Below, one piece after another: positions 1,211 through 11,229 of a stretch of DNA of 64,000 nt (position 1 is the stretch's first letter; the number at the start of each line of letters is the position of its first letter). A model generated the notes under the pieces. That model worked only from the letters and a program-made list of their open reading frames with translations. It was not told where the DNA came from and ran no database searches. The DNA is taken from NCBI GenBank assembly GCA_947497905.1, contig CANMIH010000008.1, positions 1 to 64,000 on the forward strand, in the 5' to 3' direction. The DNA comes from an uncultured Pelagimonas sp. Its GTDB lineage: Bacteria > Pseudomonadota > Alphaproteobacteria > Rhodobacterales > Rhodobacteraceae. Both the position numbers and the translations under genes were made by a program.

Positions 1211-2983
1211 TCAGAGTTCGATCTGAGCGGGGAGCAGGCTGCTGCTTCCGGCGCAGATCCGGGCGCGCTCGGCGGCACAGTCCACAAGGATATGCTGGGC
1301 GTAGAACAGCGCCGTGTCGATTTTTTGCTCCATAAAGGGGGCATCTTCACCGGCGTTGCGTTTGGCATTGGCCGCGAGAGCCGCGCGCGCCATCTGCCAT
1401 CCGGCGGCGAGCGTCCCGGTCAGCATAAGGAAGGGAACGCTACCCGCGAAAACGGCGTTGATGTCTTTTGGTGCGGTTTCAAGAAGCCATGCGGCGGCGG
1501 CTTCAAACTCGGCACGGGCCTGCCCCAAACAAGATGCGATGGCCTGCGCCTTGGCATCACCTGCATTCAAGGCGGCCTCGGTTTCGGCTATCTTGGCCGC
1601 GAACACCCGCGCGCGTTCGCCACCATCCCGCAGCAGCTGGCGCCCAATCAGGTCATTTGACTGAATAGCGGTGGTGCCTTCGTAGATCGGCAAAATCCGC
1701 GCGTCGCGATAGAACTGCGCCACGCCGGTCTCTTCGATAAAGCCCATGCCGCCATGGATCTGAATCCCAAGCGATGCCACTTCAACGGCACGTTCGGTGC
1801 AGAACCCTTTGACCAGAGGCACAAGGAAGTCCGACATATCCGAAGCCTGGCGCGCGGCGTCGTCCGATCCGTGGTGGCTTACATCCAAATACCCAGCCGT
1901 GGCCATGGCCAGTGCGCGGCCCGCTTCGGTCAGGGACTTCATTCGCATCAGCATGCGTTTCACATCTGGGTGTTCGATGATCGGCGCGGCCTCACGGCGG
2001 CTGCCGTCAACGGGGCGGCTTTGAACACGTTCTTTCGCATAGGCCAGTGCGTGCTGATAGGCGCGTTCAGACAAGGCGATGCCCTGCATCCCCACGGCAA
2101 ACCGCGCCGCCCTCATCATCACAAACATATAGGACAGGCCGTTGTTTTCTTCGCCCACCAGAAACCCGGTGGCGCCGTCATATTCCAGAACAGCGGTCGG
2201 GCTCGCCCGTACACCAAGTTTATGTTCGACACTTACGCATTTGACGGCGTTACGCGCCCCAAGTGCGCCTTCGTTGTCGACCATAAACTTGGGTACGATG
2301 AACAGGCTTAGACCCTTTGGACCTGCTGGCGCGCCCGGTGTACGGGCCAGAACAAGATGGATGATGTTCTCGCTGAGATCATGTTCACCGTATGTGATAA
2401 AGATCTTGGTGCCTGAAACAGCGTAGGAACCATCCGCCTGCGGCTCGGCTTTGCTGGCCACACGTCCCAGATCGCTTCCAGCCTGCGGCTCGGTCAGGTT
2501 CATTGTGCCGGTCCAGCGCCCTGCGATCATCGGTTCCAGATAGCGCTGTTTCTGTTCGTCCGATCCGGTCAACAACAATGCTTCAATCGCGCCGTCGGTC
2601 AAAAGCGGGCAAAGTCCAAAGCTCATATCCGAGGAATTCAGGATTTCCGTAGCAGCTGCTCCAGCCGCGCGCGGCAGCCCCATACCACCAAACGCAGGGG
2701 AGTGTGCCAGGCTTTGCCACCCCATCTCAACAAATTGTGCGTAAGCAGGGCCATAAGACTCGGGCAGGGTGACTTTCGTTCCGTCAAAGTGAGACGCCGT
2801 TTCATCGGCCTGCGCAGCGTTCGGCGCAATCACGTCACCACAGAACCGTCCCAACCCTTCAAGCGCGGCGTCGACATCGGCTGTGTCAACATCGGTATAA
2901 GTGGCCAGCGACAGGACATCTGACCAAGAAGACAGGTTCTCAATGTTGAACATAATGTCGCGAACCGGGGCTTGGTAGGTCAT
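1211..2983 (-). CDS. Acyl-CoA dehydrogenase of the long DmdC/FadE-like type
   Basis: This 590-residue flavoprotein is longer than classic 380-residue acyl-CoA dehydrogenases. It has the N-terminal YxAPVRDxxF signature and the extra C-terminal domain of the DmdC-like family. FAD-binding motifs include MNLTEPQAGSDLG near residue 161, and the acyl-CoA pocket sequence IHGGMGFIEE lies near 409. The expected catalytic base is Glu435 in LPIYEGTTAIQ, which coincides with the residue number I recall for 3-methylmercaptopropionyl-CoA dehydrogenase DmdC. A TTG five codons upstream is open, but the ATG has GGAG at about ten bases and is preferred. It likely forms an operon with the crotonase. Roseobacters carry several paralogues, so the MMPA-CoA substrate is inferred. 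Confidence 0.75.
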   Translation of the reverse strand: MTYQAPVRDIMFNIENLSSWSDVLSLATYTDVDTADVDAALEGLGRFCGDVIAPNAAQADETASHFDGTKVTLPESYGPAYAQFVEMGWQSLAHSPAFGGMGLPRAAGAAATEILNSSDMSFGLCPLLTDGAIEALLLTGSDEQKQRYLEPMIAGRWTGTMNLTEPQAGSDLGRVASKAEPQADGSYAVSGTKIFITYGEHDLSENIIHLVLARTPGAPAGPKGLSLFIVPKFMVDNEGALGARNAVKCVSVEHKLGVRASPTAVLEYDGATGFLVGEENNGLSYMFVMMRAARFAVGMQGIALSERAYQHALAYAKERVQSRPVDGSRREAAPIIEHPDVKRMLMRMKSLTEAGRALAMATAGYLDVSHHGSDDAARQASDMSDFLVPLVKGFCTERAVEVASLGIQIHGGMGFIEETGVAQFYRDARILPIYEGTTAIQSNDLIGRQLLRDGGERARVFAAKIAETEAALNAGDAKAQAIASCLGQARAEFEAAAAWLLETAPKDINAVFAGSVPFLMLTGTLAAGWQMARAALAANAKRNAGEDAPFMEQKIDTALFYAQHILVDCAAERARICAGSSSLLPAQIEL

Positions 2984-3102
2984 GTCTCGCTGCTCCAAAT
3001 ACTGTTTCTTTACGCCAAATATAGATTGAACTTAGTGGCTTCGATCTTCATATCAGACAAATTCCTTTCCAAAAGTGACAATCCATTGCAGGCTGGCACA
3101 AC

Positions 3103-4122
3103 ATGACGTCAACCGATCCTTCCCGCCTGACCACTGTCTCCGCACTTTTTGCGGATGATTGGGTTGCCGCTCTGCGGCGCTGTTGCGATGAAGAACAGCT
3201 GGATTCATTTCTTCGGCGCGCGGGGCTAAACGCCAAAGACGGACAGCTTACCCATCGCGTAACCCTCGATCAGATTGTTCGCCTGTACCAGATCGCCGCC
3301 ATCGAAACCGGTGATGAGATGATGGGACTGTGGAGCCGTCCGATCCGCGCCCGGGCGCTTCAACATCTGCTGACAACAGTGCGCGAGGCTTCATCCCCTC
3401 CCTCGGCATTGCACCGGTTTTCGACATTTTGGAATTTGCTGCTTGATGATTTTCAATTCGAGTTGGCCCCAGCCGGGCAAGACCTGTCGCTTAGGTTGGT
3501 GCCACAAGGCGACCAAGAGGTACAGCGATTTGGTCACATGCTGATCCTCAAACTGGCGCATGGACTTTTGTCCTGGATTGCAGGCTATGAGATGCCGGTG
3601 CAATCGGTGGATTTTGCCTTTGAACGCCCTGAATTTAGCGAAGACTACGCCGCTATTTTTCCCGCACCGGTTCGGTTCGCGGCCCAGTTCTCTGGCATAG
3701 TGTTTTCACCCGAAGAATTTCGTACACCCGTTCCACGCAGCGATGCGGATCTGAAAGCCTTTTTAGATCGCGCACCGCGTGATTGGTTATTCACAGGATA
3801 TCACCAACACAGCCAATCTCGCCGGGTTCGGGACTTTCTGTTTCAAACGCAGTGGACCAAAAGCCACCTCACGGATGCGGCTTTGGCACTAAACGTTACG
3901 CCGCGCACCCTGATGCGCCGGTTGGACGCCGAAGACACCACGTTTCAGGCGATCAAAGATGGCCTCAGACGTGATCTGGCCATCAGCGCGCTGCAGTCGG
4001 GAACCAAAAGCATCGAAGAGATCTCTCAGGATGTTGGATTCTCCTCAGCCGCAAATTTTCATCGCGCGTTTCAGCGTTGGACCGGTGCGCCCCCCAGCGC
4101 CTACAGGATCTCTAAACTCTGA
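3103..4122 (+). CDS. AraC-family transcriptional regulator with arabinose-binding-like N-terminal domain
   Basis: This 339-residue regulator has the layout of the AraC subgroup with a large N-terminal ligand-sensing domain (about residues 15-205) and a C-terminal double helix-turn-helix (about 240-336). The DNA-binding part shows LNVTPRTLMRRLDAED and the closing IEEISQDVGFSSAANFHRAFQRWTG signature in pieces typical of the family. It is divergent from the acyl-CoA dehydrogenase across 119 bases and co-directional with the adenylation-acyltransferase fusion 106 bases downstream. It could therefore control either side. The ligand is unknown. Confidence 0.85.
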   Translation: MTSTDPSRLTTVSALFADDWVAALRRCCDEEQLDSFLRRAGLNAKDGQLTHRVTLDQIVRLYQIAAIETGDEMMGLWSRPIRARALQHLLTTVREASSPPSALHRFSTFWNLLLDDFQFELAPAGQDLSLRLVPQGDQEVQRFGHMLILKLAHGLLSWIAGYEMPVQSVDFAFERPEFSEDYAAIFPAPVRFAAQFSGIVFSPEEFRTPVPRSDADLKAFLDRAPRDWLFTGYHQHSQSRRVRDFLFQTQWTKSHLTDAALALNVTPRTLMRRLDAEDTTFQAIKDGLRRDLAISALQSGTKSIEEISQDVGFSSAANFHRAFQRWTGAPPSAYRISKL

Positions 4123-4228: not shown

Positions 4229-6682
4229 ATGACAACGCGGTACGTCGGGATCAAAACGGTCAATTCACCAGCCTATGCCGAGGCGGTTTTTGAGGCCTAC
4301 CAATCGGGACGGATCGTTGTACCGGTCATGGGCGCACATGTGGCGCTTCCGGATCAGATCCTTCTAGAGGAGACGCTAGACCCTGATCCCAAAGGCGGAT
4401 GGTTTTCACCGATTTTGCCGGACAAGCGATCCGATGAGATTGCACAGATTTCCTTTTCGTCGGGCACCGAAGGTCCGCCTAAAGGAATTGCTCTGTCTCA
4501 CAACGCATTGCTGGATGTTGTCGAGAGGATTAATGCCGCGATGGGTGTCGATGATACCATCCGCGAGTACATTGGCATCCCGGTGTTCTATTCCTTTGGC
4601 TTGGGGCGCTGTCGCGCCGTGGCCCGTGCCAGAGGGCGGGCCTATGTGCCCGAGGCCGGTTTTAATCTGACTGAGTTTTTGACCATGTTGTCTGGCGGTG
4701 ACGTCAATGCTTTGTCGGCGGTGCCGACACTGCTTCGCTTGGTGATCAAACATCGTGACAAGTTTTCTGAGGCTGGGCAAAATCTCAAATGGCTTGAAAT
4801 TGGTAGTCAGTATATCAGCCGCGACGAGAAAGAGGCGATAAAAGAAATCTTTCCGAATGCGGCGATCTTGCTCAACTACGGCCTGACCGAAGCGTCGCGT
4901 TCGACGCTCCAGATCGTGTCAGAGGCACAGGGTGATGAGCTGGAGTCTGTTGGACGCGCTGAAGGCGCTGTCGAAATGAAACTCAACTCCGAGGGCCGGA
5001 TTTGTCTGCGGGGACCAAATCTTGCCACCTATTTGCTTGTCGAAGGTGAGCGCCGGTCGCTAGTTGACGACGATGGATGGTTTGTCACGGGCGATGTTGG
5101 CGAGATCAAGGACGGGCATCTGTATTTCAATGGGCGGGCTGATGATCTCATCAATTGTGCCGGGATCAAGGTGTCAGCGGAAGTTCTGGAGCAAGAGTTG
5201 CTCGCCGAATTGCCTGCGGGCATGCCCGTTGCAGTGACGGGGGTGCCTGACCTTCTGCGAGGCGAGCGCATCTTTGTTGCGGTGGAACCCGGCTCAGCGA
5301 TGTCGGTTGCCGAGGTGCAGGGCCGAGCCGAAATAGCCTTTGCCAACCGTGATGCCGCGCTGGCTGCTGCTGTTTCGAGCGGAACCGTCGACCATATCCC
5401 CCGAACACATACCAACAAGGTGCGACGGGCGGCGCTTCGAGACACCGTAATTGCCATGGGCCTCACTCAAAATGGGAAAGCGGAGGGCAGCGGCGCCGAC
5501 ACTCTTTTTGCGGCCTTCCAAAGGCAATTCCCAAGCGAGACTATTACCAAAGAGATCAGCCTGGACACCCTAGGGGGAACCTCGCTTGATTTTATCGAGC
5601 TTGAACTTGAGGTCGAGCGCATTCTTGGTGGCGCCCCAGCTGATTGGCATAAAATGCCGCTATCTGAACTATCGGGGTGGGTGGCCAGTTCTGGTTCCGC
5701 TTCAGCCCCTTTGGCCCAAATTGATCAGCTTTCGGCGCGGGCCTTGTGTTGTGTTCTGGTGGTTCTGGCCCATGTGGTCGGGGATAGTCCCGCGTATGGC
5801 TTGGGTCTGTCTTCGGATCATTGGCTGAGATATTTTAACGAGTTGGGTGGTTACTTCAAAATGCCGCTCTTTGCCTTTGTCTCTGGTTGGACATTCTCCT
5901 TGATGGGCAGTGCCGCTTTAGCACCGGGGCGCTATTTCTCCACGCTGGGCAAAACGGTTGTCTTACCCACCGTTGCGACGATCTTAGTATTCGCACTGCT
6001 CTCTGGAGAGTTCTCCGATGGGGGGGGCCTGAATTTCGCATCCTTCGGTGAGGTTCTCTTCCAGTCTTATGCGCATTTCTGGTTTATCCAAAGTCTGATA
6101 GGTCTGTTGATTGTCACTTATCTTGTGATGCGATTTACGCGTCCATTGTTGCCCTATTTTCTGGGGGCCATGTTGGTTTTGCCAATGATTGCGCCGGGGA
6201 TCTGGGCCTCACCGGTGTTAGGGATCGACGGGATGGCAGTGCTTGGTCCGTTTTTTGCGCTTGGCCTGACTGTACCCCTGTCGGTTGGACCTGCACGCCG
6301 GATCTGGAGTTTTACAGAGCGCTTGATCACTCCGGCCGCCGCCTTTGCATTTGGTGTCGCACTCTGGTTCGCGGGGCAGGGGACAATTTACTATCTACCC
6401 GGCCTCATTGGGTTTGCGCTGGGATTGCCCATGATGTTGTTTGTGTTGCGGGCTGCGGGGCAGATTCCCGGCCTTAAGGCATTGGCACCCTATACGTTTT
6501 ACATCTTTCTCTGGCATGTGTTCTTCACAAGCGCGACACGACGGTTGCTTGATAAACTTGGTGTCGAAGCGCTCTCGCTGCATATTGCAGCAGGTTTGGT
6601 GCTGGGCGTGTTCGGACCACTGGCGCTGGGTTTCGGGTTGCGCAAACTGGGCCTGTTTCGATTTGTTGAGGGGCGCTGGTAA
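4229..6682 (+). CDS. Three-domain fusion: AMP-forming adenylation, carrier protein, membrane acyltransferase 3
   Basis: The 817-residue protein joins three modules. Residues 1-410 are an ANL adenylating domain with ISFSSGTEGPPKG (A3, 75-86), NYGLTEAS (216-223), WFVTGD (284-289), GRADDLI (302-308) and a terminal catalytic lysine Lys397 in THTNKVRR. Residues 422-490 are a carrier domain with LGGTSLDF, Ser452 being the phosphopantetheine site. Residues 498-817 form a polytopic acyltransferase-3 domain with R504-x10-His515 and FVSGW. The protein could activate an acyl or amino acid, hold it as a thioester and transfer it to an envelope acceptor. The N-terminal adenylation subdomain is unusually short, with A3 at residue 75 instead of about 160. 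Substrate and acceptor are not apparent. The start has AGAGG upstream. Confidence 0.8.
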   Translation: MTTRYVGIKTVNSPAYAEAVFEAYQSGRIVVPVMGAHVALPDQILLEETLDPDPKGGWFSPILPDKRSDEIAQISFSSGTEGPPKGIALSHNALLDVVERINAAMGVDDTIREYIGIPVFYSFGLGRCRAVARARGRAYVPEAGFNLTEFLTMLSGGDVNALSAVPTLLRLVIKHRDKFSEAGQNLKWLEIGSQYISRDEKEAIKEIFPNAAILLNYGLTEASRSTLQIVSEAQGDELESVGRAEGAVEMKLNSEGRICLRGPNLATYLLVEGERRSLVDDDGWFVTGDVGEIKDGHLYFNGRADDLINCAGIKVSAEVLEQELLAELPAGMPVAVTGVPDLLRGERIFVAVEPGSAMSVAEVQGRAEIAFANRDAALAAAVSSGTVDHIPRTHTNKVRRAALRDTVIAMGLTQNGKAEGSGADTLFAAFQRQFPSETITKEISLDTLGGTSLDFIELELEVERILGGAPADWHKMPLSELSGWVASSGSASAPLAQIDQLSARALCCVLVVLAHVVGDSPAYGLGLSSDHWLRYFNELGGYFKMPLFAFVSGWTFSLMGSAALAPGRYFSTLGKTVVLPTVATILVFALLSGEFSDGGGLNFASFGEVLFQSYAHFWFIQSLIGLLIVTYLVMRFTRPLLPYFLGAMLVLPMIAPGIWASPVLGIDGMAVLGPFFALGLTVPLSVGPARRIWSFTERLITPAAAFAFGVALWFAGQGTIYYLPGLIGFALGLPMMLFVLRAAGQIPGLKALAPYTFYIFLWHVFFTSATRRLLDKLGVEALSLHIAAGLVLGVFGPLALGFGLRKLGLFRFVEGRW

Positions 6683-6915: not shown

Positions 6916-9900
6916 TCAGACGATGTCGACAGAGATGACAACGTCCTGATAGTCGCGGTCGCCGCCACCAAACAGATCTTCGAAGCCGATATCGATGCCA
7001 TTGCCATCGGCCTGAACACCGGAGACTGCGTGCTGGACGCCGTCGCTGTTCAGGGTTGTATCGAAGCTGTGGAAGATGTTGTTGTTTACCACGGTGCCGT
7101 TGATTGTCAGATCCAGTGCTGTACCTGCGCTGATGTTAGCGTCGCCAGCAGCACCATTTGCAGGAACGAAGTCAAAGACATCGGTTGCAGCATTGGTGAC
7201 AAGATCCGCGCCGTCGAAGACCAGGAAGAAGCCAAGCTTGTTGCCTGCGTCTACACCGGTGATGGTGAAGCTTGGGTCTGTCGATACCGAAGTATCTGCA
7301 AAGACCAAGCGCACATCAACGATTTCACCGGTTGCGTCGACTTCATAGACACCCAACAGGTTCTTGGCGCTCGCACCCGAACGCGCGCTATCAAGCGAGA
7401 CGTTGTAGGTGTTGGTGCCGTCACCGGTCAGGAAGCTTTGGCTAACGATACCGTTTTCAGCATCGGCAGCAATCGACGTGCCTTCACCCAGAGCAATCAG
7501 GCTCTGCTCATACGAAACCTTGGTCTCGGATCCCTGTTGGAAGACAAGGAAGTTACCGCCAGTCAGAGCTTCGTTCAGAGTGATTGTGGTGTCGGCAGTA
7601 CCATCACCATCGGAGTCGATCGCCAGAGTGGAAGGTGCCCCACCAGCGCCGGCAGTGAAGGTCAGGTCATCGGCATCGAACTGAGCACCAGTGAACACAA
7701 TCTCATCTTCGTCGTCGAAGTCAGTGAAAGTGTCACCGTTCAGGTTGGTTGCGCTGTCGCGAATGACATCAGCGCCGTCGCCTGTTGTGACAGTGTCGTC
7801 ACCAAAGCCTGTCGAAACAGTGTCGTCACCTGCACCCGCATCGATATTGTCTGCGACGAAGGTACCGGTCACAGCTTCACCCGCAGCGTTGCCGCCGTTG
7901 TTGCCAACGGTTGGCTGAGCTTCGACCTCAACAGTCATGGTCTCGGTGTATACGTTTCCTGCACCGTCAGTAACCTGGATCTCAATTGTGCGATCCGCGC
8001 CTGCAGTAAAGGTAGGAGTACCATCAACTTCAAGCGTTGTACCGTTAAGTACAAAGTTTCCGCCGTCGTTGTTGGTCAGAACGTATGTGTGCGTGTCACC
8101 AGGTGTGCCGTCGGTGACCTCAACCGAACCAACAACAGTACCGTCAGTCGCGCTGTCGACAATGAGATTGTTGCTCAGTTCGAGGTCGGTCGCGACCAGG
8201 TTGACCGTGATGGCCAGAGCCGCAACGGTTGTGACGTTGCCTGCAAGGTCAGTGGCACGCAGCGTGACGGTTTTGCTACCTTCGGTGGCATATGCCGCTG
8301 GCTTGGTCACAGTTTGCAAGGCACCTGTGCCTGTACCTGCCGAAACGAAACCGTTCCCATCGCCATAGTCAATCTCGAGGATCGAGTTGCTTTCAGCGGT
8401 GAAGCTGAACGTTGGCGCAGCCTCATCGGTTACGGTGATAACACCACCCGGGCTTACCGAAGCGGCATCCAGAGCAATCGGCGAAGCCGAAGGCGCAGTT
8501 GTGTCAAGCACAAAGACGAAGGCCGAAGACGCTGCCGACGTGTTACCCGCTGTATCGGTTGCTGTAGCAGTGATGACATGAGTCGCACCGGTTGCAATCG
8601 AGTTGGACGGGAAGGTGTGATCGTAGGTCCAGTTGCCCATCGCATCAGCAACAACAGGAGCAGCAGCTGGTGTTCCGTCAATGGTAACAAGAACCGAGCT
8701 TCCCGCTTCGGCTGTACCCGAAATGGTCTGCATCGCTGTCATAGTGACGTTGTCGCTTGAAGACGAACCGGTGTCAGCGCTGATGCCTGAAACAACAGGA
8801 GCGTTTGGTCCGGAGCTGTCTACAACCAAGGTAAACGCCGAGGATGCAGCTGAAACGTTACCTGCAACATCGGTGGATGTCGCTGTTACAGCATAGGTAG
8901 CATCTGCCAGTGTTGTTGCGGTGTGGTCGTAAGTCCAGTTACCGCTACCGTCTGCAGTTGTTGTACCAATCGAGGCACCGTCGATAAAGACTTCGACAGA
9001 ACTGTTGGCAACCGCAGTACCTGTGATGTTCAGAGTGCCATCCGATGTGATGCCATCGGTTGCACCGGTGTCGTCACTGATACCAGTAACCGCAGGGGCC
9101 GCATTCGCAGTTGTGTCAACCTCAAGAGGCATAGCAGCTGATGCAGCGGAGGTGTTACCAGCCGTGTCACTCGCGGTTGCGGTCACCGAGTAGGTGCCTT
9201 CGGCCAGGGCGGTGCCAGTATGGTCGAACGTCCAGTCACCCAGACCATCTGCAGCTGTTGTACCAATCGAGACGCCGTCGATGAAGACTTCGACAGTGCT
9301 GTTTGCAACGGCTGTACCGGTGAACGTCAGCGAAGTGTCGGAAGTGATTTCATCGGTTGGCGACGCGCCGGTGTCATCGCTGATGCTGTCAACGGTAGGA
9401 GCAGCAGGAGCAACAGTATCCACTTCCAGAGTGAAAGCGGAAGACGCAGCAGACGTATTGCCTGCACCGTCAGTTGCAGTTGCCGTGATCGCATAGGTCG
9501 CATCTGCAAGAGTTGCGCCTGTGTGGTCAAACGACCAATCACCATTGGCATCCGCTGCCACGGTACCGATCGACACGCCATCAAGAAGAACTGCTACGGT
9601 GCTATTAGCTTCAGCAGTGCCGGTAATGGTCAGCGTGTTGTCTGAAGTAACACCATCGGTGGTCGACGAACCCGTGTCATCGCTTACTGCAGTAACTACT
9701 GGTGCTGCTGGTGCTGTGCTGTCCACAACTACAGTGAAGTCAGCCGAAGGTGCCGAGACATTACCTGCAACATCTGTCGAAGTCGCTGTGACAACATAAG
9801 TGCCTTCAGCCAAGGTTGTGCCGGTGTGGTCCAATGTCCACGCGCCAGCGCCGTTCGCTGTAGCGTTACCAATCGATACGCCGTCAATGAAGACTTCAAC

Positions 9901-11229
9901 TTCGCTGTTGGCAACCGCCGTACCAGAGAAGATCTGCTGGCCATTTGCGGTGCTGTTGTCAGCTGCGCCGGTGTCTGCGCTGATGCCAGTAACCACAGGA
10001 GCCGCATTCGCGGTTGTGTCAACTTCAAGAGGCATGGAAGCCGAAGCAGCGGAGGTGTTACCAGCCGCGTCGGTCGCTGTCGCGGTCACCGAGTAGACGC
10101 CATCAGCCAACGCGGTACCGGTGTGATCGAAGGTCCAGTTGCCGCCACCATCTGCAGCTACAGTACCAATCGATGCGCCGTCGATGAAGACTTCAACAGT
10201 GCTGTTAGCAGCGGCTGTACCGGTGAACGTCAGCGAAGTGTCGGAAGTGATTTCATCGGTTGGCGAAGTGCCGGTGTCATCGCTGATGCTAACAACCGCC
10301 GGAGCCGCCGGAGCAGCAGTATCAACTACAAGAGCGAAGCCAGTGGAGGCCGGGGATGTATTGCCGGCTGCGTCTGTGGCAGTTGCAGTGATCGCGTAGG
10401 TCGCATCTGCAAGAGTGGTACCGGTGTGGTCAAACGACCAGTCACCATTGGCATCTGCTGCCACGGTACCGATCGACACGCCATCAATGAGAACGTCTAC
10501 GGTGCTGTTGGCTTCCGCAGTACCCGTAATGGTCAGAGTAGCGTCAGAGGTAATACCATCAGTGGTCGACGAACCCGTATCATCGCTTACCGCGGTAACT
10601 GCTGGTGCAGCGGGGGCCGAAGTGTCCACTACAACAGTGTAGTCAGCCGAGGGTGCCGAGACGTTGCCCGCATCATCGGTCGAAGTTGCTGTGACAACAT
10701 ATGTGCCTTCAGCCAAGGTTGTGCCGGTGTGGTCAAATGTCCACGCGCCAGCGCCGTTCGCTGTAGCGTTACCAATCGATACGCCGTCAATGAAGACTTC
10801 AACTTCGCTGTTGGCAACCGCCGTACCCGAGATGCTCAGGGTGTCGTCGTTGGTGACGCCGTCCGAGCTCGAGCTACCGTTGTCGTCGCTGACGCTGGTG
10901 ACTGCAGGAGCTGCATTTGCCGTTGTGTCGATTTCGAAGGTCAAAGGCGCTGCAGAGTCTGCAGTTCCATTGCTACCGTCGGTCGCGGTGGCAGTGATCG
11001 CGTGGGTGTTCTCCGACAGAGGCGTAGTCACGTAGAAAGTCCAGACGCCACCACTTACAGTAGCCGAACCTTGGAGCAGACCGTCTTGATCAGAGGTAAG
11101 TGTGATCACCTCACCATCAACGCCAGTACCAGTAATGACTGGCATTGTGTTGTTTGTGAGATCATCGCTGTTCGATGCTCCGCTATCGGAAGCCGTCGAT
11201 AAATCAAGTGATGCAGGGGCTGTAGCCAT
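6916..11229 (-). CDS. Large secreted Ig-like repeat protein with RTX motif and DUF4114-like C-terminus (probable type I secreted adhesin)
   Basis: This is a 1437-residue acidic protein without lysine-rich or cysteine-rich parts and without an N-terminal signal peptide. About nine bacterial Ig-like domains of roughly 100 residues follow one another, each with a core like ITGTAEANSTVDVLIDG and FDHTGTTLA and ending in a TDxAGNxS motif. A cadherin-like domain follows near residue 1030. A short RTX segment with GAGDDTVSTGFGDDTVTTG lies near 1133-1150, and the C-terminal 80 residues end FGGGDRDYQDVVISVD, typical of DUF4114. This layout predicts calcium-dependent folding after type I export through a C-terminal signal. 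No secretion genes are in the window. Domains 1-3 and 4-6 are a recent block duplication. A CtrA-type box and a palindrome lie upstream. No good Shine-Dalgarno precedes the ATG. Confidence 0.85.
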   Translation of the reverse strand: MATAPASLDLSTASDSGASNSDDLTNNTMPVITGTGVDGEVITLTSDQDGLLQGSATVSGGVWTFYVTTPLSENTHAITATATDGSNGTADSAAPLTFEIDTTANAAPAVTSVSDDNGSSSSDGVTNDDTLSISGTAVANSEVEVFIDGVSIGNATANGAGAWTFDHTGTTLAEGTYVVTATSTDDAGNVSAPSADYTVVVDTSAPAAPAVTAVSDDTGSSTTDGITSDATLTITGTAEANSTVDVLIDGVSIGTVAADANGDWSFDHTGTTLADATYAITATATDAAGNTSPASTGFALVVDTAAPAAPAVVSISDDTGTSPTDEITSDTSLTFTGTAAANSTVEVFIDGASIGTVAADGGGNWTFDHTGTALADGVYSVTATATDAAGNTSAASASMPLEVDTTANAAPVVTGISADTGAADNSTANGQQIFSGTAVANSEVEVFIDGVSIGNATANGAGAWTLDHTGTTLAEGTYVVTATSTDVAGNVSAPSADFTVVVDSTAPAAPVVTAVSDDTGSSTTDGVTSDNTLTITGTAEANSTVAVLLDGVSIGTVAADANGDWSFDHTGATLADATYAITATATDGAGNTSAASSAFTLEVDTVAPAAPTVDSISDDTGASPTDEITSDTSLTFTGTAVANSTVEVFIDGVSIGTTAADGLGDWTFDHTGTALAEGTYSVTATASDTAGNTSAASAAMPLEVDTTANAAPAVTGISDDTGATDGITSDGTLNITGTAVANSSVEVFIDGASIGTTTADGSGNWTYDHTATTLADATYAVTATSTDVAGNVSAASSAFTLVVDSSGPNAPVVSGISADTGSSSSDNVTMTAMQTISGTAEAGSSVLVTIDGTPAAAPVVADAMGNWTYDHTFPSNSIATGATHVITATATDTAGNTSAASSAFVFVLDTTAPSASPIALDAASVSPGGVITVTDEAAPTFSFTAESNSILEIDYGDGNGFVSAGTGTGALQTVTKPAAYATEGSKTVTLRATDLAGNVTTVAALAITVNLVATDLELSNNLIVDSATDGTVVGSVEVTDGTPGDTHTYVLTNNDGGNFVLNGTTLEVDGTPTFTAGADRTIEIQVTDGAGNVYTETMTVEVEAQPTVGNNGGNAAGEAVTGTFVADNIDAGAGDDTVSTGFGDDTVTTGDGADVIRDSATNLNGDTFTDFDDEDEIVFTGAQFDADDLTFTAGAGGAPSTLAIDSDGDGTADTTITLNEALTGGNFLVFQQGSETKVSYEQSLIALGEGTSIAADAENGIVSQSFLTGDGTNTYNVSLDSARSGASAKNLLGVYEVDATGEIVDVRLVFADTSVSTDPSFTITGVDAGNKLGFFLVFDGADLVTNAATDVFDFVPANGAAGDANISAGTALDLTINGTVVNNNIFHSFDTTLNSDGVQHAVSGVQADGNGIDIGFEDLFGGGDRDYQDVVISVDIV
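9102..10004 (-). repeat. Three-domain supra-repeat, copy 2 (Ig domains 4-6)
   Basis: This 903-bp block aligns with the next block at a constant offset of 903 bases. About 130 bases at 9801-9930 match 10704-10833 with a single mismatch seen by eye. The encoded domain types run A-B-C as in copy 1, with a two-residue deletion in the first domain. Confidence 0.8.
10005..10913 (-). repeat. Three-domain supra-repeat, copy 1 (Ig domains 1-3)
   Basis: This 909-bp block encodes three distinct Ig-like domains and is repeated as copy 2. Corresponding domains in the two copies are more alike than neighbouring domains within a copy, which shows that the unit duplicated was three domains long. Confidence 0.8.

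Follow-up and report, generated by a model that had tools for sequence, protein, structure and literature searches.

In the Dlt system, DltA loads D-alanine onto the carrier protein DltC, and DltB is grouped with the MBOAT proteins in PMC3783018. The MBOAT fold of DltB is described as distinct from that of the transmembrane acyltransferases (TmATs) in PMC12423673. The Alm system of Vibrio cholerae (AlmE, AlmF and AlmG) adds glycine to lipopolysaccharide (PMC3783018). Within the TmAT superfamily, the acyltransferase-3 (AT3) proteins and their relatives (OafA, OafB, OatA, Oac and HGSNAT) have an acyl donor that was called unidentified in PMC7448272; acyl-coenzyme A (acyl-CoA) was weighed against acyl carrier protein (ACP) in PMC9558356. 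The fusion partners of AT3 domains named in PMC9558356 and PMC12423673 are SGNH, alanine racemase and NRF; an adenylation-carrier fusion is not among the partners named there. Here we describe such a fusion, encoded at positions 4229-6682 of the window, a stretch of 64,000 nucleotides from an uncultured Pelagimonas sp. The gene codes for a single-chain adenylation, carrier and membrane acyltransferase protein. No description of this architecture was found in the literature, subscription papers and preprints lying outside the search. The joining of an ANL adenylation domain, a carrier and a TmAT in one chain appears to be little studied. The acyl donor of AT3 proteins and the membrane crossing are discussed as unsettled, and a self-activating chain with a tethered donor would make the question testable with one protein and its point variants.

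The likeness to Dlt lies in the series of acid and ATP, carrier thioester, membrane acyltransferase and extracytoplasmic acceptor. The initial annotation had drawn this comparison. The order of acid, carrier and membrane acyltransferase was borne out, but the comparison is an analogy only, as DltB has the MBOAT fold and not that of a TmAT. Unlike the separate Dlt proteins with their free-standing DltC, the window protein is a single chain with a PF01757 domain; it has no DltD in the chain and no MBOAT match in Pfam. By the numbering that we assume, it also lacks the A4 aspartate. Alm likewise has an activating enzyme, a carrier and an acyltransferase serving envelope modification (PMC3783018). 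However, the Alm proteins are separate, their substrate is glycine and AlmG has an LPLAT domain, for which the window protein gave no Pfam match.

An adenylation and an acyltransferase part are joined in one chain in the acyl-[ACP]--phospholipid O-acyltransferase models PRK08633 and PRK06814. Their acyltransferase is of another type, and they have no fused carrier. The window protein reached 82-85 bits against these models, with cut-offs of 1221-1349, and matched with its adenylation part only. An adenylation-carrier didomain is also typical of the adenylation-peptidyl carrier protein (A-PCP) modules of nonribosomal peptide synthetases (NRPSs). The window protein has no condensation domain by Pfam and no thioesterase domain, and has a membrane TmAT instead. 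The likeness to the AT3/TmAT superfamily comprises a PF01757 match over the cut-off, an R-x10-H motif, an FxxxxG motif and Gly679; the differences are the N-terminal adenylation and carrier domains and the erosion of the DxxR and RxxR motifs.

Domain layout of the fused protein

The features of the gene are as follows.

4229..6682, +, whole gene: adenylation, carrier and TmAT (AT3) in one chain of 817 amino acids (open reading frame (ORF), Pfam, collinear orthologues)
4229..5458, +, A-I adenylation (ANL) domain with shortened N-terminus, residues ~1-410 (Pfam 60-266, PDB matches ~66-406, A-I clade 100/100)
4451..4486, +, A3 phosphate-binding motif SFSSGTEGPPKG, residues 75-86 (S78, G79, T80, G82 and K85 invariant in 11 proteins)
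4874..4891, +, A5 motif NYGLTE, residues 216-221, followed by the invariant Arg224 (alignment, profile)
5075..5095, +, A7 motif GWFVTGD, residues 283-289, with Asp289 (alignment)
5132..5176, +, A8 hinge region GRADDLINCAGIKVS, residues 302-316, including GRADD (alignment)
5417..5419, +, A10 catalytic lysine Lys397 (alignment)
5480..5683, +, carrier (PP-binding) domain, residues ~418-485 (Pfam on relatives, NRPS A-PCP profile, model and fold match)
5582..5584, +, Ser452, predicted 4'-phosphopantetheine site in LGGTSLD (serine conserved in all 25 fused proteins examined)
5714..6646, +, TmAT/acyltransferase-3 membrane domain, residues ~496-806 (PF01757, 9.6e-21)
5738..5773, +, Arg504-x10-His515 motif of transmembrane helix 1 (TMH1) (R/K-x10-H of PMC7448272)

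The ORF starts with ATG, has no internal stop and lies within an open frame of 835 codons on the forward strand. The initial annotation had proposed one gene with an ANL domain, a carrier with Ser452 and an acyltransferase-3 domain. This was confirmed by the ORF, Pfam and collinear orthologues, and the motif positions (A3 from residue 75, A5, A7, A8, Lys397 and Ser452) were correct on a check of the sequence. A frameshift or an assembly error joining separate genes had been named as an objection; it is ruled out because collinear orthologues exist in two other genomes. Loss of the key motifs in homologues was the other objection. The key adenylation residues are invariant across 11 aligned proteins, and the carrier serine and the R-x10-H motif are present in all 25 fused proteins examined.

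Pfam AMP-binding matched residues 60-266 (1.3e-21), equivalent to profile positions 152-380 of 384. Since the match covers these positions only, the N-terminal part of the ANL fold is truly missing, and a complete N-terminal subdomain is not present. The match starts at profile position 153-160 in 9 of 10 relatives scanned and at 91 in L044. A short N-terminus with A3 at residue 75 and retained A5, A7, A8 and A10 lysine had been noted before, and the Pfam range and the motif check agree with it. A phmmer search of solved structures returned ANL enzymes. The best was an oxalate-CoA ligase (1.2e-22, residues 69-402), and the two top matches span residues 69-402 and 66-406. None of the 25 best NCBIfam models listed reached its own cut-off on the window protein. 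The A3, A5, A7 and A8 motifs and the A10 lysine place the domain among the ANL enzymes, under a motif nomenclature that we assume to apply.

Adenylation domains for amino acids have an aspartate at the A4 position, which holds the alpha-amino group. There is no aspartate at this position in the A-I pocket; the profile alignment shifts by one residue there and gives no aspartate either way. Arg224, invariant in the 11 aligned proteins, presumably occupies a specificity-code position of the substrate pocket. Because the A4 aspartate is absent and the invariant arginine seems to line the pocket, the sequence weakly suggests that an acid without an alpha-amino group is a somewhat likelier substrate. 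A substrate like that of malonyl-CoA synthetase, considered for the conserved arginines, was dropped because the MatB arginine touches a phosphate of the bound CoA product (PMC6122825).

The carrier of the window protein had no PF00550 match at E 0.1. The domain was found in 10 of 10 relatives scanned at E <= 0.037, over the cut-off in six. A profile of the adenylation-carrier part of 11 proteins matches linear gramicidin synthase across an A-PCP module, and the carrier serines are in register (domain i-Evalue 2.2e-18, whole sequence 1.6e-34). An AlphaFold model of residues 408-492, made with two sequences, reached a pLDDT of 73, with ~80-87 in the core. Ser452, the serine of GGTS, stands at a helix start in this model, as expected for a GGxS serine within a carrier fold. 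In Foldseek, the best 50 of 186 rows were carrier proteins, or larger proteins or complexes containing one, as judged by title. The top E-value was 0.054 and none among the rows listed was below 0.001, so this assignment rests on probability and TM-score. Tandem carriers are present in L043 (four) and L047 (three). The genome has two matches to the phosphopantetheinyl transferase (PPTase) family (PF01648), in frames of 146 and 250 amino acids. The longer frame lies near an NRPS-like protein of the same genome (L060 3-3716, G000:C4), which has a luciferase-like monooxygenase domain inside its adenylation region.

The membrane domain matched Acyl_transf_3 (PF01757) at residues 503-800 with 9.6e-21 and 74.6 bits, the cut-off being 31. 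With Arg504 and His515 it has the R/K-x10-H motif described in PMC7448272. A loss of function of the OafA variants R69A and R72A is given in the same paper. The FxxxxG motif was assigned by eye to F548-G553. Gly553 and Gly679 are invariant in 11 aligned proteins, and Gly679 is taken for the TMH6 glycine of AT3 proteins. The DxxR motif of TMH1 and the RxxR motif of TMH3, defined together with FxxxxG and the TMH6 glycine in PMC12423673, are not present in the window protein. The Arg345 of that paper presumably corresponds to R317, given the 28-residue shift between isoforms.

Family, motif erosion and reassortment

Orthologues of the same architecture are L041/L033 from Shimia biformata (57-58% identical) and L042 (47-49%). 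Other relatives have the A-I/carrier part (37-45% identical) joined to divergent TmAT domains (21-28%). In L049 and L050, a carrier and TmAT of the window type (TmAT 33-35%) stand behind a different adenylation domain, A-II (23-26%). A fused relative was found in 10 of 295 genomes of the same taxonomic family, the window's included, with three candidates scored per genome. This is a lower bound, because the A-II profile, applied to 290 genomes, added six genomes with full-length rows. At E 1e-70, the A-I profile detected one genome among 385 in the class sample and two among 398 in the phylum sample (the window's genome counted). The A-II profile at 1e-70 detected 14 of 290 in the family sample and 20 of 349 in the phylum sample. 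The 21 phylum rows of A-II comprise 5 whole chains, 1 adenylation-carrier part and 15 adenylation parts only.

Searches of plasmids by tblastn with L049 and an L044 part yielded 12 further fused proteins (L096-L107), taken from 88 matching records in one search and 1741 in another. The hosts are Rhodococcus, Mycolicibacterium, Arthrobacter, Leisingera, Paracoccus, Rhodobacter, Rhizobium, Sinorhizobium, Pararhizobium and Phyllobacterium. The sole annotation was 'AMP-binding protein' in all 12. Six of them were scanned with Pfam at E < 0.1: AMP-binding and PP-binding were present in all six, with PP-binding over the cut-off in three. Acyl_transf_3 was found in five, over the cut-off only in L097 and L099, and was absent from L096 of R. 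fascians. A plasmid copy from Neorhizobium galegae (L040 8956-11175) is split into several reading frames. The membrane domains of branch T3 in L043 and L047 had no Acyl_transf_3 match at E 1. They may be called TmATs by their position, the R-x10-H motif and the relative L048 (PF01757 2e-4, below the cut-off). In a profile-profile comparison, the three small TmAT groups reached uninformative probabilities of 0.6-1.3% (Neff ~2), compared with 0.1-0.2% for a Wzy control.

Motif erosion was assessed against the 30 AT3 loci with the best scores, 28 of them long enough to be read at TMH3, and the four nearest stand-alone AT3s. The 25 fused proteins, in sets of 13 and 12, exclude the broken copy L040; L101 (669 amino acids, TmAT incomplete) was kept in the motif counts and left out of the TmAT tree. 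The arginine and histidine of TMH1 are retained in 25 of 25 fusions, across divergent branches. The DxxR aspartate is in register in 29 of 30 controls and 4 of 4 stand-alone proteins, and in 0 of 13 and 0 of 12 fusions; the TMH1 context of L096, for instance, has no aspartate at -3. The first TMH3 Arg/Lys is present in 28 of 28 controls and all four stand-alone proteins, and in no fusion of either set. The second is present in 27 of 28, 4 of 4, 2 of 13 and 5 of 12, respectively. RxxR-type motifs in the 12 residues before the TMH3 proline follow the same order (27/28, 4/4, 3/13 and 3/12). The mean number of basic residues in this stretch is 4.3 in the controls, 3.5 in the stand-alone proteins and 1.8 and 1.9 in the fusions. 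A Mann-Whitney test of these counts gave a p of 9e-9, relatedness ignored. One family listed without DxxR in the superfamily paper is GWT1 (PMC12423673).

Trees were calculated with LG+G4 without mixture, and long branches were flagged. The adenylation tree separates A-I (11 rows, 100/100) and A-II (14 rows, 100/100); one clade of A-I with L049/L050 alone was not rejected (p-AU 0.27). In the TmAT tree, the domains of the window protein, L041 and L042 cluster with those of the A-II proteins L049/L050 (96/93), and all five stand with the stand-alone AT3s L022 and L034-L036 (100/99). A single clade of all A-I TmATs was rejected (p-AU 7e-71; 4e-5 for a smaller set), as was a single clade of all A-II TmATs (p-AU 6e-34). 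The A-I branch T2 and 11 new A-II TmATs as one group were not rejected (0.18). The carrier tends to follow the TmAT: its tree places the window type with L049/L050 at 81/79, which is not significant. As A-I and A-II each occur with more than one TmAT branch, the tree topologies show that adenylation and TmAT halves reassorted between proteins. Such exchangeable adenylation halves suggest a natural toolkit for placing unusual acids on cell-surface molecules.

Counterparts of the two halves may also occur as separate genes. In L124, an AT3 gene (369-1421, PF01757 3.3e-26) lies 79 nt upstream of an adenylation-carrier gene (1501-3162) on the same strand. Because the AT3 gene precedes the adenylation-carrier gene, this is not a simple frameshift. 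The L124 AT3 has neither DxxR nor RxxR by eye. In L125, the adenylation-carrier frame closes at 7262. A TmAT comes next, in a different reading frame that may begin with a TTG at 7255 (PF01757 1.2e-10, fused-TmAT profile 9.5e-32). Fusion-derived profiles found no carrier or TmAT at 13 loci of adenylation-only rows (12 genomes, 11 from other classes of the phylum and one from the same class), and no adenylation or carrier genes near the stand-alone AT3s L059 and L034-L036. No adenylation, carrier or fused-type TmAT match came from five regions containing other AT3s, most of them in long frames.

In L131 (3902-12078), from a genome of the same phylum, a free-standing A-II-like ligase has LuxE, LuxC, pseudaminic-acid genes and a small ACP-like gene as its neighbours. 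The pseudaminic set has PseG and PseI over the NCBIfam cut-off, a PseH-like protein below it and a cytidylyltransferase. The ACP-like gene was named by motif and length, with no Pfam or NCBIfam match. L126 (2673-8546), likewise of this phylum, has a similar set, in which a PseC-like aminotransferase and an ACP gene score below the cut-off.

Proposed reaction and alternatives

On balance, we lean towards a self-loading transmembrane acyltransferase with a tethered thioester as donor and an extracytoplasmic acceptor. The cytosolic A-I domain would activate a free carboxylic acid with ATP. The acid would be loaded as a thioester onto the phosphopantetheine arm of the protein's own carrier at Ser452, primed by one of the two PPTases of the cell. 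The carrier would then dock where the fused TmAT pore opens to the cytosol. Its arm, chemically the distal part of CoA, may reach into the pore and serve as donor in place of CoA. The Arg504/His515 site would acylate a hydroxyl or an amine of an acceptor on the outer side of the inner membrane; a glycan or a lipid-linked sugar is the likeliest acceptor. The product may be an envelope ester or amide. A wider proposal is possible but tentative: a family of single-chain TmATs in which a tethered phosphopantetheine thioester replaces acyl-CoA, exchangeable A-I and A-II front ends serve at least two TmAT branches and the pore end for the CoA nucleotide has decayed in the fusions.

Several observations weigh against these proposals. 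Canonical motifs are over-represented in the 30 controls because these were picked as top PF01757 scorers. The closer control comprises four proteins only, one of which (L036) has an arginine instead of the histidine, and no stand-alone control represents the divergent branches T2 and T3. If a slip of one or two residues is allowed, five fusions in the set of 12 have an Asp/Glu at -4 and five in the set of 13 have one at -5; free alignment counted 5 of these 10 as aligned. RxxR-type motifs persist in 6 of the 25 fusions, and the L125 TmAT retains DxxR and RxxR though its partner is a carrier protein. The split in L125 may be a frameshift in a once-fused gene, and the L124 AT3 was not matched by the profile of fused TmATs. 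The full-length AlphaFold model was poor (pLDDT 45, from a 6-row alignment). OacB functions without the DxxR aspartate (PMC12423673), and acyl-CoA is favoured over ACP as the donor of known AT3s in the review PMC9558356.

An unlikely alternative to an envelope acceptor is a diffusible one, the protein making and exporting a small acylated molecule, for example for metal chelation or signalling. Five of the 12 plasmid loci have an annotated iron ABC transporter operon next to the A-II fusion, which is a functional lead for this branch.

L096 10517-14174, iron ABC transporter operon beside A-II fusion, 4-nt overlap
L103 3229-6930, the same, 7 nt apart
L102 9690-13410, the same
L107 9993-13656, the same
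L100 2491-6435, the same, divergent

A TauD-type dioxygenase directly upstream of the fusions L043 (6162-7130) and L047 (6414-7349), 79% identical to each other, also fits a small molecule, as in carrier-bound tailoring. However, seven of the 12 plasmid loci have no annotated iron transporter, and the ORFs scanned next to the window gene do not include one. Sugars are the main targets of the AT3 proteins covered in PMC9558356. Of the 10 A-I relatives whose copy is unbroken (L038, L039, L041-L048), 5 have glycan genes nearby, the neighbours of the other five having been scanned in part. L042 has Wzy_C only, and L046 has Wzy_C together with proteins that resemble a glycosyltransferase of L043. 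L043 has glycosyltransferases and an AT3-SGNH protein; L047 has a glycosyltransferase, DegT, a sulfotransferase and an AT3; L048 has ManC-type, MBOAT and glycosyltransferase genes. The ORFs scanned around the window gene include no glycan gene.

It is quite improbable that the TmAT takes ordinary acyl-CoA, with the adenylation-carrier half merely supplying the acid in another form and the fusion serving co-localisation. Several known AT3s use acyl-CoA (PMC9558356), and the motifs kept in L125 and in six fusions would fit this donor. The erosion of DxxR and RxxR in most fusions argues for the tethered donor instead, as does the carrier present in all 25 fused proteins and in three to four tandem copies in L047 and L043. 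A degenerate TmAT half, acting as a mere membrane anchor or channel while another enzyme takes the product from the carrier, would agree with the loss of DxxR and of RxxR, whose arginines are essential in OafA (PMC7448272), but is very unlikely given the TMH1 arginine and histidine retained in 25 of 25 fusions across divergent branches and the invariant Gly553 and Gly679.

Genes around the fusion

An AraC-type regulator and a large surface protein gene beside the fusion had been read as a hint of envelope modification. This was not supported: two relatives of the regulator pair with a dehydrogenase, and the surface protein was unmatched in the loci examined. Relatives of the AraC gene (3103-4122) were found at E 1e-60 in 3 of 60 other genomes, namely G009 and G031 (57-58%) and G035 (62%). 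In G009 and G031, the relative stands head to head with an acyl-CoA dehydrogenase gene that is 69-71% identical to the one in the window, and no fusion was detected there. In G035, only a distant dehydrogenase (26%) is nearby. The same head-to-head arrangement of regulator and acyl-CoA dehydrogenase is seen in the window (1211-4122).

On the other side of the fusion, a gene on the reverse strand (6916-11229) codes for a 1437-aa protein with repeated bacterial Ig-like domains and DUF4114 at its end, which is probably a surface or secreted protein. It had no match in the relatives' loci examined, and no link to the fusion was found. In the Shimia biformata locus L041 (2044-7052), the genes after the fusion code for a Ser/Thr kinase, an FHA protein, a PP2C phosphatase and a GTPase-like protein.

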